Source: Bryobacterales bacterium (GTDB lineage: Bacteria; Acidobacteriota; Terriglobia; Bryobacterales; Bryobacteraceae). From it: a stretch of 64,000 nt of DNA. The notes beneath the pieces are model-generated. The model worked only from the letters and a program-made list of their open reading frames with translations, was not told the DNA's origin and searched no databases. Position numbers and translations under genes: made by a program. This document shows, in pieces, positions 16,217 to 29,367 of this stretch. Location: the NCBI GenBank assembly GCA_003164035.1, contig PLRS01000007.1:1-64000 (forward strand), in the 5' to 3' direction. Positions within the stretch are counted from its first letter, which is position 1. Each line of letters starts with the position of its first letter.

Positions 16217-17092
16217 CTATTTCAGGCCGTAAGTCACGCTGACGGTGACCGGAGAGCCGGTCCCCACAAATACCAGCAGCGAGCGTTTTGTGGCGTCATC
16301 CGTGCCAATGACCGAACCGCCGCCGGGGCTTGAGATGTTGGTGGTCTTGAGCCCCAGCTCCTTGCATTTGTCCTGATAGAAGCTCAACACCCGTTCCTGC
16401 GAGTCCGTGGTCGTGAACGTGAAACTGCCGCTGACGTTGCCGTCGCCGGCGGAAGCCGAGAAGGTGGATTTGGGCGTCGAGCCACCGGGGTAGGACGGCA
16501 CCCAGCCGGGAATGCCCCTGACCGAACCGCCGAAATCGAGAGTAGCATTCTTGCCCTGGTCGTCCTGAGCCGTCACGCTGAACTGACCGTTCCTAGCCTG
16601 GTCGAAGGTTAGCGTAGTGACTTTCCCGGTTCTCCGGTCGCGTACGGTGATGGTGCCGGCGCCGTCGTCGGTATTCAGCACTTGGATGTCGGGATTGGTA
16701 GAGGCCACCAGCTTCGAAATGGCGAGGCCGGGATTGCGCGCCATGAGGTCCGGATCGAGCCCCGCCTGTCTGACCTTGTGAACCACAAAAAAGCCCAAGC
16801 CCGCGATCGTCAGTCCGCCCAGCACGAATAGGCCTAGAATGATGACCAGCACCCAGACAATGGGGCTGGTTTTCCGCTGGGCCGCCACCGCGGGCGCGAA
16901 CGGAGGCTGCGCCATCGGAGGCGGCTGGTAGGCAGCCGCTGGAGGAACCGGCGTCGCGGGTGGGGGAGCCGCAGCCACGGGAGGAACCGGCGCCGCGGCG
17001 GGCGATGGGGGAGCCGCGGAGCCGGCCGGGCGGCCGCACTGCGTGCAGAAAGCGCCGTTTATCGTGGCGCCGCAATTCGTACAGAATGCCAT
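16217..17092 (-). CDS. Zinc-ribbon membrane protein with a periplasmic domain
   Basis: 291 residues. The N-terminus MAFCTNCGATINGAFCTQCG is a four-Cys zinc ribbon. A long Pro/Ala-rich stretch follows (about 21-80), then one membrane helix (IVWVLVIILGLFVLGGLTIA). The outer domain has two beta-rich parts, one around VRDRRTGKVTTLTFDQARNG and one around SGSFTFTTTDSQERVLSFYQ. GGAGG lies 7 nt before ATG 17092. The layout is common in Acidobacteria, but its role is not known to me. It converges with the 61-residue membrane protein. Confidence 0.8.
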   Translation of the reverse strand: MAFCTNCGATINGAFCTQCGRPAGSAAPPSPAAAPVPPVAAAPPPATPVPPAAAYQPPPMAQPPFAPAVAAQRKTSPIVWVLVIILGLFVLGGLTIAGLGFFVVHKVRQAGLDPDLMARNPGLAISKLVASTNPDIQVLNTDDGAGTITVRDRRTGKVTTLTFDQARNGQFSVTAQDDQGKNATLDFGGSVRGIPGWVPSYPGGSTPKSTFSASAGDGNVSGSFTFTTTDSQERVLSFYQDKCKELGLKTTNISSPGGGSVIGTDDATKRSLLVFVGTGSPVTVSVTYGLK

Positions 17093-17329
17093 TCGTGCCT
17101 CCAATCGCACTACTCTATGCCAGCCCGGGTTCAATAGCAACGGTCCCGGTACCAGCGGTGCGCCTCAGAAGGCCTTTCCAGGGAAAGAACATGCGAATTC
17201 CGCGACTTCGACCGACGTTATTAACAGCTTTCGATTTTCCCGGTGGAATGTGGATTGGGCGGGTTTCCAGGAGAAGCTACTTGAGGCTTCAAATGGGAAA
17301 GCCCGGATAGCGTCCGGGCCTTCCACACG

Positions 17330-17352
17330 AAGCTGGAAAGGAGGATCCAGCT
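17330..17352 (+). promoter_or_regulatory. Hairpin presenting a Shine-Dalgarno in its loop
   Basis: AGCTGGA (17330-17336) and TCCAGCT (17346-17352) pair perfectly, with AAGGAGGA in or next to the loop. ATG 17354 follows almost immediately. The arrangement could tune translation of the mini-ORF. Confidence 0.5.
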
Positions 17353-17353
17353 T

Positions 17354-17437
17354 ATGATCCTTCTGCTGGTAAAGTTCCGGTCCGTTATCGGCCGGCTTAC
17401 GGCGCTGATCGTTTGGACCCGTCAGGGCTGGCGGTAA
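17354..17437 (+). CDS. Candidate 27-residue hydrophobic peptide
   Basis: The ORF encodes MILLLVKFRSVIGRLTALI followed by VWTRQGWR and TAA (17435-17437). AAGGAGG lies 10 nt upstream within a hairpin. The peptide is hydrophobic with basic residues, like leader peptides or small membrane peptides and type I toxins, but no homologue is known to me. No biosynthetic gene follows on the same strand, which argues against a classic attenuation leader. Confidence 0.35.
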   Translation: MILLLVKFRSVIGRLTALIVWTRQGWR

Positions 17438-17539
17438 GCGTCAGCGGGGGCCGGGTCGCCATACCCGGTTCCCGCTACCAGCATCATACCGCAACACGCC
17501 CTGGTTTTTCCAGGCCTAGCTATCGCGAGCGTGGGAGCG

Positions 17540-18328
17540 TCAGTCCAGTCCGAAACCGAAGCTGCGCAGCGAAAGATTTCCCAGCTCGAAACCTTCGAGC
17601 AAGTTCACCGGCGGCTCGTCGGCGAAGGCCGACCCCAAGGTCGCAAAAATAGGGTCGAAGTGTTCGGTGGTTGGCGCCGCTTCGGCTGCGTGGGGCGCCA
17701 GGCTGCGATAGCGCAACAGGCTCTCCACGTCCCCGGCGGCCACGCGGGAGGCAACCCAACCGTCGAACGACGCCGCCCAATCGTCCACCGCGTCGTCCGC
17801 CGCGCCGAAGCGTACCCGTCCCAGGTTGTGCACGATGCCGCCCGTCCCGAGCAGTAACACTCCTTCGTCGCGCAACGGCCGAAGCGCGCGCCCCAGTTCC
17901 AGAATCCGGCTGGGTGGGGCATCCGGCAGCGAAAGCTCCAAAACCGGAGTGGCGGCATCCGGCCATGCCAGCCGCAACGGTACCCAAGCACCATGATCCA
18001 GGCCGCGCCGGGTCTCGAGCACGGCGTCGATTCCGCTGGCCCGCAACAGGCCGGTAACGTGCTCGGCCAGCGCCGGGTCGCCGGGCGCCGGATATTGCAG
18101 GCTATAGAGTTCGTCGGGGAATCCGCCGAAGTCGTATACCAGCCCGGCATGGCGCCAGGCGGTGATGCGCACCGGCTCCGGAGTCTGCCAATGCGCCGAA
18201 ATCGCCAGGATCGCTTTCATCCCCCGCACCCGCTCGCCCACCTGTCGCAAACCGGCCGCCAGCCGGTCGGCGCCCAGAGCCGACATCGGCGAGCCGTGGG
18301 CGATAAACAACGTTGGAACACGCGTCAT
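17540..18328 (-). CDS. DODA-type extradiol ring-cleavage dioxygenase (LigB/YgiD family)
   Basis: 262 residues. The family contains 4,5-DOPA extradiol dioxygenases that open catechol rings with a bound metal. Putative metal and active-site His residues are in LFIAHGSPMSALGA, AILAISAHWQTPEPVRIT, RRGLDHGAWVPLRLAWP and LLGTGGIVHNLG. ATG 18328 is chosen because MTRVPTLFIAHGSPM matches the family N-terminus; upstream in-frame codons run into a repeat. Length fits YgiD (about 260). The physiological substrate is unknown. Confidence 0.87.
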   Translation of the reverse strand: MTRVPTLFIAHGSPMSALGADRLAAGLRQVGERVRGMKAILAISAHWQTPEPVRITAWRHAGLVYDFGGFPDELYSLQYPAPGDPALAEHVTGLLRASGIDAVLETRRGLDHGAWVPLRLAWPDAATPVLELSLPDAPPSRILELGRALRPLRDEGVLLLGTGGIVHNLGRVRFGAADDAVDDWAASFDGWVASRVAAGDVESLLRYRSLAPHAAEAAPTTEHFDPIFATLGSAFADEPPVNLLEGFELGNLSLRSFGFGLD

Positions 18329-18440
18329 TGTCAGTCTGTATGGATGCGCGGGTCTCGTCGGGCGATTCGCCGGGGCACAAGGTGGCGGCGTTGCCCGCCA
18401 GCCGGATGAGTCTGTCGGGCCCTCGCGAGGCCGTAACAGC

Positions 18441-27264: not shown

Positions 27265-29367
27265 ATGTTTCACACCGTTGAAGTTGACCTGGACGGCCGC
27301 AAGATTACCTTTGAAACCGGTAAGATGGCCAAGCAGGCGAACGGCGCCGTTGTCGTTCGTTCCGGCGATTCCGTGGTGCTGGTATCGGCTTGTATGGCCG
27401 ATAAGCCCAAAGCGAATGCCGGCTTTTTCCCTCTCACGGTCGATTACCGCGAGTATACTTACGCCGCCGGAAAGATTCCGGGCGGCTTTATCAAACGCGA
27501 GGGCCGTCCCTCTGAAAAAGAAATCCTCACCAGCCGGCTGATCGACCGGCCGATTCGTCCGCTCTTCCCCGAAGGTTTGCTGTACGAAACCCAGGTCATC
27601 GCCATGGTTCTGTCGGCCGATCCCGAACAGGACCCCAATACGCTGGCGATTTGCGGCGCCGCCGCCGCGCTGGCCATTTCCGATCTGCCGTTCCCGCACA
27701 TTCTGAGCGGGGTCCGCGTGGGCCTGAAGGATGGCAAGTACGTGGCCAATCCGACCTACACCGAATCGCGCGAATCGAAGCTGAATATCGTGGTGGCCGG
27801 CACCGAACAGGGTATCGTGATGGTGGAAGCCGGGGCGCAGCAGGTTTCCGAAGCCGAGGTGCTGGGCGCCATCGAATATGGTCACGAGTGCTGCAAGAAG
27901 ATCGCCGACGCGATTCGGCAACTGGTGAAATTGACCGGCAAGACGAAGCGGGAATTCAACCCGCCGGTGCTTGACAAGGAAGTCTATGCGGCGGTCGAAA
28001 CGGCCGTCCGCGTGGAGCTGACCGACGCGCTCGATACCAAGAAATACGAGAAGCTGGAAAGCTACGCCCGCGTGGACGCACTGCGGCAGAAGGCCCTGGA
28101 GGGCTTCGCCGAAGAAAAGCGGGAAGAAGCCGGCGATTGCTACGACGCCCTGAAGGAGCGCATCTTCCGCGACGAGATACTGAAAAGCCGCCGCCGTCCG
28201 GATGGCCGCGCCTTCGACGAAATCCGCCAGATCACGATCGAGACCGGCGTGCTGCCGCGCACCCACGGCTCGGCGTTGTTCACTCGCGGCGAAACCCAAG
28301 CCCTGGTGACCCTGACCCTGGGCACCAAGGACGACGAGCAGCGCATCGAGCTGCTCGAGCCCGGCGAAGCCTCCAAGCGCTTCATGCTGCACTACAATTT
28401 CCCGCCGTTCAGCGTGGGAGAAGTAGGCTTCATGCGGGGGCCGGGCCGGCGCGAAATCGGCCACGGCGCCCTGGCCGAGCGTTCCCTGAGCGCACTGATT
28501 CCCGACGAGCAGAAATTCCCTTATACCTTGCGCGTGGTCAGCGACATTCTGGAATCCAACGGTTCCAGTTCGATGGCCACGGTTTGCGGCGCATCGCTGA
28601 CGCTGATGGATGCCGGCGTGCCGATCGCCTCGCACGTGGGCGGCGTCGCCATGGGCCTGGTGAAGGAAGGCGACGACTACGCCATCCTGACCGATATCGC
28701 CGGCGCCGAGGATCACTACGGCGACATGGACTTCAAGGTGGCCGGCACGCGCGAGGGCATCACCGGCCTGCAGATGGATATCAAGGTCCCCAACGTGACC
28801 ACCGCCATCATGAAGGAAGCGCTGGAGCAGGCCCGGCGCGGCCGGTTGTTCATCCTGGATAAGATGTACGCGGCGATTGCGGCGCCCTCCAGCAGTATGT
28901 CGCAGTACGCGCCGCGCATCTACACCATGACCATTCCGCAGGATAAAATCCGCGACGTCATCGGACCGGGCGGCAAAGTCATTCGCGGCATCATCGAGCA
29001 GACCGGCGTGAAGATCGACGTCGAGGACGACGGCACGATTCACGTGGCATCGGCCGACGAGGCTTCCGCCAACAAGGCCCTGCAGATCATCTCCGACCTC
29101 ACCGCTTCGGCCGAAGTCGGCAAGACTTACCTCGGCAAGGTGGTGCGGCTGGTCGATTTCGGCGCTTTCGTCGAGATCTTCCCCGGCACCGACGGCCTGC
29201 TGCACATCAGCGAAATCGCCGAAAACCGCATCAAGGACGTACGCGACGAGTTGAAGGAAGGCGACCAGATTCTGGTGAAGGTGCTGGCGCTCGAAGGCAA
29301 CAAAATCAAGCTCAGCCGCAAAGCCGTACTTCGCGAGCAGCGCGAAAAACTAAAGCAGGCGAAGTAA
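27265..29367 (+). CDS. pnp: Polyribonucleotide nucleotidyltransferase (PNPase)
   Basis: 700 residues, the normal size. PNPase degrades RNA from the 3' end with phosphate. Domains: first RNase PH-like (about 5-220, GKIPGGFIKREGRPSEKE), helical linker, second RNase PH-like (about 310-540, FMRGPGRREIGHGALAE and SDILESNGSSSMATVCG), KH (about 555-615, KIRDVIGPGGKVIRGI) and S1 (about 620-690, GKVVRLVDFGAFVEIFPG). GGAGG lies 12 nt before the ATG. Confidence 0.97.
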   Translation: MFHTVEVDLDGRKITFETGKMAKQANGAVVVRSGDSVVLVSACMADKPKANAGFFPLTVDYREYTYAAGKIPGGFIKREGRPSEKEILTSRLIDRPIRPLFPEGLLYETQVIAMVLSADPEQDPNTLAICGAAAALAISDLPFPHILSGVRVGLKDGKYVANPTYTESRESKLNIVVAGTEQGIVMVEAGAQQVSEAEVLGAIEYGHECCKKIADAIRQLVKLTGKTKREFNPPVLDKEVYAAVETAVRVELTDALDTKKYEKLESYARVDALRQKALEGFAEEKREEAGDCYDALKERIFRDEILKSRRRPDGRAFDEIRQITIETGVLPRTHGSALFTRGETQALVTLTLGTKDDEQRIELLEPGEASKRFMLHYNFPPFSVGEVGFMRGPGRREIGHGALAERSLSALIPDEQKFPYTLRVVSDILESNGSSSMATVCGASLTLMDAGVPIASHVGGVAMGLVKEGDDYAILTDIAGAEDHYGDMDFKVAGTREGITGLQMDIKVPNVTTAIMKEALEQARRGRLFILDKMYAAIAAPSSSMSQYAPRIYTMTIPQDKIRDVIGPGGKVIRGIIEQTGVKIDVEDDGTIHVASADEASANKALQIISDLTASAEVGKTYLGKVVRLVDFGAFVEIFPGTDGLLHISEIAENRIKDVRDELKEGDQILVKVLALEGNKIKLSRKAVLREQREKLKQAK

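Follow-up and report, generated by a model that had tools for sequence, protein, structure and literature searches.

Introduction

Between two minus-strand genes on contig PLRS01000007.1 of a Bryobacterales bacterium (assembly GCA_003164035.1), an earlier note had singled out a short plus-strand stretch in which a Shine-Dalgarno (SD) sequence lies in a hairpin loop directly before a tiny ORF, with further hairpins on either side. The note proposed three readings: a small peptide under translational control, a type I toxin, or a structured RNA of unknown kind. The locus raises the question of what kind of element it represents. Our analysis started from the first 64,000 nucleotides of the contig (hereafter the window) and was extended to related genomes, whose copies combine a selected ORF, covarying helices that occlude the translation start, and conserved signals for an antisense promoter and terminator. 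The locus is probably a single copy of a type I toxin-antitoxin system whose family is new and lineage-specific, with toxicity and transcription as predicted properties.

According to a 2025 report, type I systems are known only from Proteobacteria, Firmicutes and Tenericutes, together with the cyanobacterial case presented in that report, and the range is thought to look narrow because discovery relies on similarity to known systems (PMC12390103). A literature search, with subscription papers mostly outside its reach, returned no type I system described for Acidobacteria or Acidobacteriota, and the available part of a survey of orphan toxin and antitoxin numbers across phyla describes no type I locus in Acidobacteriota (PMC12654330). 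The element looks like a new family of an already known kind, predicted to be transcribed and toxic. A family that was found through its structure and has dozens of copies, divergent and in tandem, would extend the type I range to a major soil phylum, and it would supply a natural covariation set for studying what keeps toxin mRNAs silent and antisense pairs specific.

The locus and its competing folds

Every part named in the earlier note is present in the sequence. A perfect 8-bp stem (AAGCTGGA, 17330-17337, with TCCAGCTT, 17346-17353) encloses the loop AAGGAGGA (17338-17345), the ATG at 17354 abuts this stem directly, and the 27-codon ORF is preceded by a GC hairpin at 17301-17319 and followed by a long stem at about 17446-17475 (Table 1). 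As described, the stretch lies between two minus-strand genes, which are a 307-aa ORF on one side and a LigB-family gene on the other. The inverted repeat CCTGG-TTTTT-CCAGG exists at 17500-17514, but the source genome's other two copies do not preserve it. The stretch folds much better than its dinucleotide shuffles (z -5.66, with none of 200 shuffles as good), and the other strand also folds well (z -4.75). The minimum-energy fold pairs AGGAGGATC (17339-17347) with GATCCTTCT (17356-17364), so the modelled folds comprise two competing states, and the stem that holds the SD in its loop is just one of them.

Table 1. Features of the locus; positions are those of the window, and roles in toxin or antitoxin function are predicted
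Feature	Position	Strand	Basis
Conserved structured element (putative toxin-mRNA body), ~230 nt	17262..17489	+	R1 match 215 bits; R2 match 167.5 bits
5' outer stem, 17264-17269 with 17294-17299, around small GAAGC/GCTTC hairpin	17264..17299	+	Helices 1 and 2 of A5 and A8, two-sided changes
GC hairpin, candidate antisense intrinsic terminator, weak in the window copy (TTT only)	17301..17319	minus	T-run counts
Hairpin of the earlier note, AAGCTGGA / TCCAGCTT, SD in loop, putative early folding state	17330..17353	+	Stem of at least 6 bp in 5/53 copies
Shine-Dalgarno AGGAGG	17339..17344	+	Sequence; copy comparison
SD-sequestering helix, 17342-17347 with 17356-17361; 9 bp in minimum-energy fold	17342..17361	+	Helix 5 of A8
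27-aa ORF MILLLVKFRSVIGRLTALIVWTRQGWR, putative membrane toxin	17354..17437	+	Codons 17354-17434, stop 17435-17437; pN/pS
Long-distance helix, 5' arm (codons 4-6)	17364..17370	+	Pairs with 17477-17483; helix 6, swap test
3' hairpin past stop codon, variable sequence, pairing kept	17446..17475	+	Helix 9 of A8
Long-distance helix, 3' arm	17477..17483	+	Pairs with 17364-17370; helix 6, swap test
Antisense -10, TATGAT (reading 17488 to 17483)	17483..17488	minus	TAnnnT at exact place in 44/53 copies
Antisense -35 candidate, TGGAAA, 18-bp spacer	17507..17512	minus	TT enriched at matching place across copies
Predicted antisense RNA (putative antitoxin), about 180 nt	17297..17476	minus	Ends inferred from promoter and terminator; minus-strand fold z -4.29
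LigB-family gene	17543-18346	minus	Pfam

Copies and distribution

The source genome carries three dispersed copies, of which the other two are 84% and 87% identical to that of the window over ~260 bases. The three peptides are 81-89% identical, and the hairpin 3' of the stop codon differs in sequence among the three while its pairing is largely kept. By Pfam, the second copy neighbours an aldehyde dehydrogenase and a polysaccharide deacetylase/formyl transferase, and the third lies near an aldo-keto reductase. Direct DNA similarity across 60 relatives found nothing beyond the source genome, and a DNA pattern run over 84,980 genomes gave three matches only, in Bryobacterales bog_159, Bryobacteraceae JOPF335 and Terriglobia SRVP_16. 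A profile of the three peptides, searched against 237 genomes of the same family (genomes and loci bear our working labels, G and L), returned ten matches at E<=1 in G102, two of them in tandem, together with matches in G204 and, more weakly, G170; matches elsewhere with E above about 0.005 were not counted as members.

Covariance models reached further. The first, R1, was built from 14 copies and matched at E<=0.1 in 29 of the 237 family genomes, with nine candidates scored per genome; the broader model R2 gave 114 matches across 28 genomes chosen for re-search, from 1 to 13 per genome. The covariance-model matches fall almost entirely within one acidobacterial family and are often multi-copy or tandem, with tandem units of roughly 290-400 bp in several genomes. 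At class level a match at E<=0.001 occurred in 19 of 399 genomes, outside the family only in G059 and G444, and the G444 match reads as an ordinary terminator reached by chance. At phylum level (396 genomes) only the source genome and one chance match were returned, the latter in G873, where it likewise reads as an ordinary terminator.

For the comparisons below, 66 matches were reduced to 57 by removing nine that were degenerate, belonged to the polar sub-class or ran off a contig end, and 53 copies remained for testing after removal of one without an ORF and three that were frameshifted or truncated; in three copies the start codon was shifted to an upstream in-frame ATG.

Several loci hold arrays of two or three full units spaced roughly 360-400 bp apart (L091, 1034-1987; L089, 3262-3878; L105; L120), and the peptides and long-distance helices of these units mostly differ. 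Frameshifted, truncated or SD-less copies lie near or among intact ones at L113 (1429-1659), L065 (2224-2424), L112 (1034-1268) and L108. The presence of damaged copies alongside intact ones suggests continual duplication and loss.

Covarying helices and the folding path

The earlier note had proposed covariation analysis of homologous regions, and nine helices indeed covary in two alignments. In A5, a plain MAFFT alignment of 14 copies whose consensus structure was derived from A5 itself, two-sided changes occur in 24 of 59 pairs, compared with 11.2 +/- 1.8 in shuffles; in A8, a model-fitted alignment of 32 copies that is biased in favour of the model structure, they occur in 52 of 59 (39.6 +/- 2.3 in shuffles), and 93.9% of cells are paired. 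The layout comprises a 5' outer stem with its small hairpin, the GC hairpin, a helix between the SD region and codons 2-3, a long-distance helix between codons 4-6 and the 3' end, an intra-ORF helix and a post-stop hairpin. In A8 the SD-sequestering helix 5 has 94.3% of cells paired and two-sided changes in five of six pairs, the long-distance helix 6 has 96.8% and six of seven, and the post-stop helix 9 has 98.4% and all eight. For the locus as a whole, stems and ORF are therefore conserved in relatives, the RNA architecture better than the peptide sequence.

Independent evidence backs the long-distance helix. The sum of pairing energies for true partners was -805 kcal/mol, as against -645 +/- 20 kcal/mol when 3' ends were permuted among copies, and none of 20000 permutations reached the true sum, in a test that ignores kinship. 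A helix of at least 7 bp forms in 44 of 53 copies versus 22% of partners swapped between genomes; four of the nine copies that fall short of 7 bp belong to G014.

The hairpin with the SD in its loop fared differently. Its perfect 8-bp stem is real, but a stem of at least 6 bp is carried by only five of 53 copies, namely the three of the source genome and those of G204, where a compensatory G-C to A-U change preserves it, and G086; it is therefore a lineage-specific early state and not part of the family core. Growing transcripts of eight copies, folded computationally, follow an orderly path. In the lineage of the window the SD would be free in the loop until the start codon has been made, and 12 nt later codons 2-4 would have paired with it. 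Once the element is complete, seven of the eight copies show codons 4-6 joined to the 3' end. Covarying helices 5 and 6 and this folding path thus describe a putative mRNA whose fold occludes the SD and start codon, as type I toxin mRNAs do.

A selected small ORF

The peptide is 22-29 aa long in the 53 clean copies and has a hydrophobic front and basic residues, in agreement with the earlier description of the ORF as hydrophobic and basic. Its sequence varies across copies while it stays short and mostly hydrophobic and basic, and the SD and start codon are retained in nearly all of them. Pooled over the 53 copies, pN/pS is 0.38 (0.24-0.63 within classes) as compared with 0.96 and 2.07 in the shifted frames; the ORF is under purifying selection. 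In the main classes the ORF is thus under 60 aa, hydrophobic and selected, as expected of a type I toxin; the minor polar sub-class lacks the hydrophobic character.

Signals for an antisense RNA

On the minus strand, TAnnnT occurs at one fixed place at the 3' edge of the element in 44 of 53 copies and in 35 of the 39 outside the R1 set, compared with a background of 0.0073 per position. One comparison of the promoter region used 52 copies picked by TAnnnT, in which those three letters are fixed by construction; the counts given here are the unselected ones. A TT lies 23 nt upstream of the -10 (17-bp spacer) in 20 of 52 copies, versus a mean of 3.1 at other offsets, and the next highest count, 15, is at the adjacent offset; this candidate -35 site falls outside the modelled region. 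The -10 and -35 weight matrices are matters of general knowledge. Read on the minus strand, 35 of 53 copies carry a run of at least four T after the stem of the GC hairpin; read on the plus strand, no copy does. Together, the conserved -10, the enriched TT upstream of it and the minus-only terminator signal delimit a predicted antisense RNA that would extend across the SD and the whole ORF. On the sense strand, a conserved promoter was sought and not established, good sigma70-like sequences being found in some copies only, and no terminator is conserved across copies.

A proposed mechanism and its alternatives

In the reading that we favour, the plus strand would yield a compact mRNA for a hydrophobic, basic peptide of 22-29 aa. 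During its transcription, successive hairpins would trap the SD, which in the lineage of the window would first be exposed in a loop and then paired with codons 2-4, and in the full-length RNA codons 4-6 would be held by the 3' end. From the promoter at the 3' edge, the minus strand would yield an antisense RNA of ~180 nt, ending at the terminator in the 5' hairpin of the toxin mRNA and spanning SD and ORF; by binding the toxin mRNA it would stop translation or trigger decay. Processing of the toxin mRNA at its 3' end may bring about activation. Several findings count against this reading: a few members encode polar, non-membrane peptides; the window copy has only TTT at its antisense terminator and only TGGAAA as its -35; the sense promoter is not clearly conserved and no sense terminator is; nine copies lack the 7-bp long-distance helix; and some copies have no good start codon or frame.

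The same anatomy could serve a non-toxic membrane or regulatory peptide that tunes a membrane protein under antisense RNA control, and anatomy does not distinguish such a regulator from a toxin. A polar peptide sub-class on the same RNA scaffold is compatible with this alternative, as are the peptide searches: no family reached its cut-off in Pfam, NCBIfam or PADLOC, and neither profile A6 nor one divergent peptide matched any PDB sequence. The PXXXGC motif that characterizes the Fst/Ldr superfamily (PMC8309996) is absent, by reading, from the listed peptides. We nevertheless consider a regulator unlikely, since multi-layer silencing, 1-13 copies per genome, tandem arrays and decaying copies typify type I toxins, as is generally known and as described for Ldr and Ibs/Sib (PMC4147584).

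Strong covariation, in an architecture conserved better than the peptide, might instead point to a structured non-coding RNA, or two overlapping ones, with an incidental ORF. Two G014 copies (L096 and L118) fit this picture in that they keep the full frame but begin it with ATT or CTG in place of the ATG or GTG seen elsewhere; these codons may be rare starts, or they may mark the onset of decay. The in-frame constraint (pN/pS of 0.38 versus about 1 and 2 out of frame) and the near-universal retention of SD and start make an incidental ORF very improbable. The Rfam check proposed in the earlier note was run and gave no match in the window, and across the loci of 17 relatives the best E was 0.26, below the gathering score.

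Although the copies are dispersed among unrelated gene neighbourhoods and form tandem arrays, a MITE- or REP-type mobile repeat whose hairpins serve transposition is the least probable explanation, as a selected ORF and a conserved antisense promoter and terminator are unexpected for such repeats and a Pfam scan of seven neighbours found no transposase family. Those seven genes were ordinary chromosomal or unmatched, and at the loci of 15 relatives all strand arrangements occur; no link to neighbour genes was found. Searches of phages and plasmids, and of viral contigs with two patterns, gave no matches, and there is therefore no link to mobile replicons.

Comparison with known type I systems

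Among known systems, aapA/IsoA of Helicobacter resembles the proposed toxin-antitoxin element in several traits (PMC6733600): several chromosomal copies, a cationic membrane peptide of ~30 aa, a cis antisense RNA opposite the ORF (predicted in our case), and a 5'-3' long-distance interaction preceded by SD-sequestering hairpins, one with an anti-SD inside the ORF. In aapA3, successive hairpins trap the SD before the 5'-3' interaction forms, 3' trimming relieves this interaction, and the antisense RNA is the antitoxin (PMC6733600). The 3' end of aapA3, however, pairs with the SD (aSD3; PMC6733600), whereas that of our element pairs with codons 4-6 and its SD with codons 2-4; the element is therefore not assigned to aapA/IsoA. 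IsoA3 is also 80 nt long (PMC6733600), as compared with a predicted ~180 nt ending at a terminator inside the toxin 5'UTR. aapA/IsoA belongs to Epsilonproteobacteria and the element to Acidobacteriota; the likeness drawn here is one of working principle.

The Escherichia coli systems share other traits. Ibs/Sib is a repeat of ~140 nt in five copies, with an antisense RNA spanning the whole ORF and RBS of a tiny hydrophobic peptide (PMC4147584); the IbsC C-terminus, unlike that of our peptide, is described as not positively charged (PMC8309996), and the likeness is by description only. In Ldr/Rdl the chromosomal repeats lie in tandem, and each encodes a small membrane peptide whose C-terminus is charged, together with an antisense RNA, but Rdl (~60 nt) overlaps the 5'UTR and not the RBS or start (PMC4147584). 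Finally, msoT1/msoA1 of Microcystis is, like our element, a candidate type I system beyond the three classic phyla; as described, its antisense RNA differs in spanning the 3' part of the ORF and the 3'UTR, and it belongs to a different phylum (PMC12390103).

A polar sub-class on the same RNA

Polar peptides of the form PKGYRL..DG..E..L.P occur on the same kind of RNA in two genomes, G245 and G059, the latter from another family of the class, and a profile of three polar peptides matched in four of 299 class genomes. Beta-type peptides with PKGYRL..DG..E..LEP were seen at L133 (1601-1693), L124 (from 1484 onwards), L132 and L136, the loci of G059, G245, G023 and G210. Such peptides are unlikely to act as simple membrane toxins. 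It is conceivable, although we would not call it probable, that the element represents the first type I family of the Acidobacteriota and combines a stable RNA chassis (antisense promoter, terminator and long-distance interaction) with an exchangeable peptide, which would be membrane-directed and cationic in most members and, in the sub-class, polar (GYRL..DG..E..LEP) with probably another target. If so, a tandem array whose long-distance helices diverge would represent an evolving set of toxin-antitoxin pairs, each insulated from the others.

Other features of the window

The left neighbour of the element (16217-17140, minus strand), the 307-aa ORF, has a likely start near 17092 and no Pfam match at E<=0.001. 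It is proline-rich and, by eye, has an N-terminal CxxC..CxxC zinc-ribbon-like stretch and a membrane segment. The sole tRNA gene found in the window is a tRNA-Val (gac) at 28567-28637 on the plus strand.
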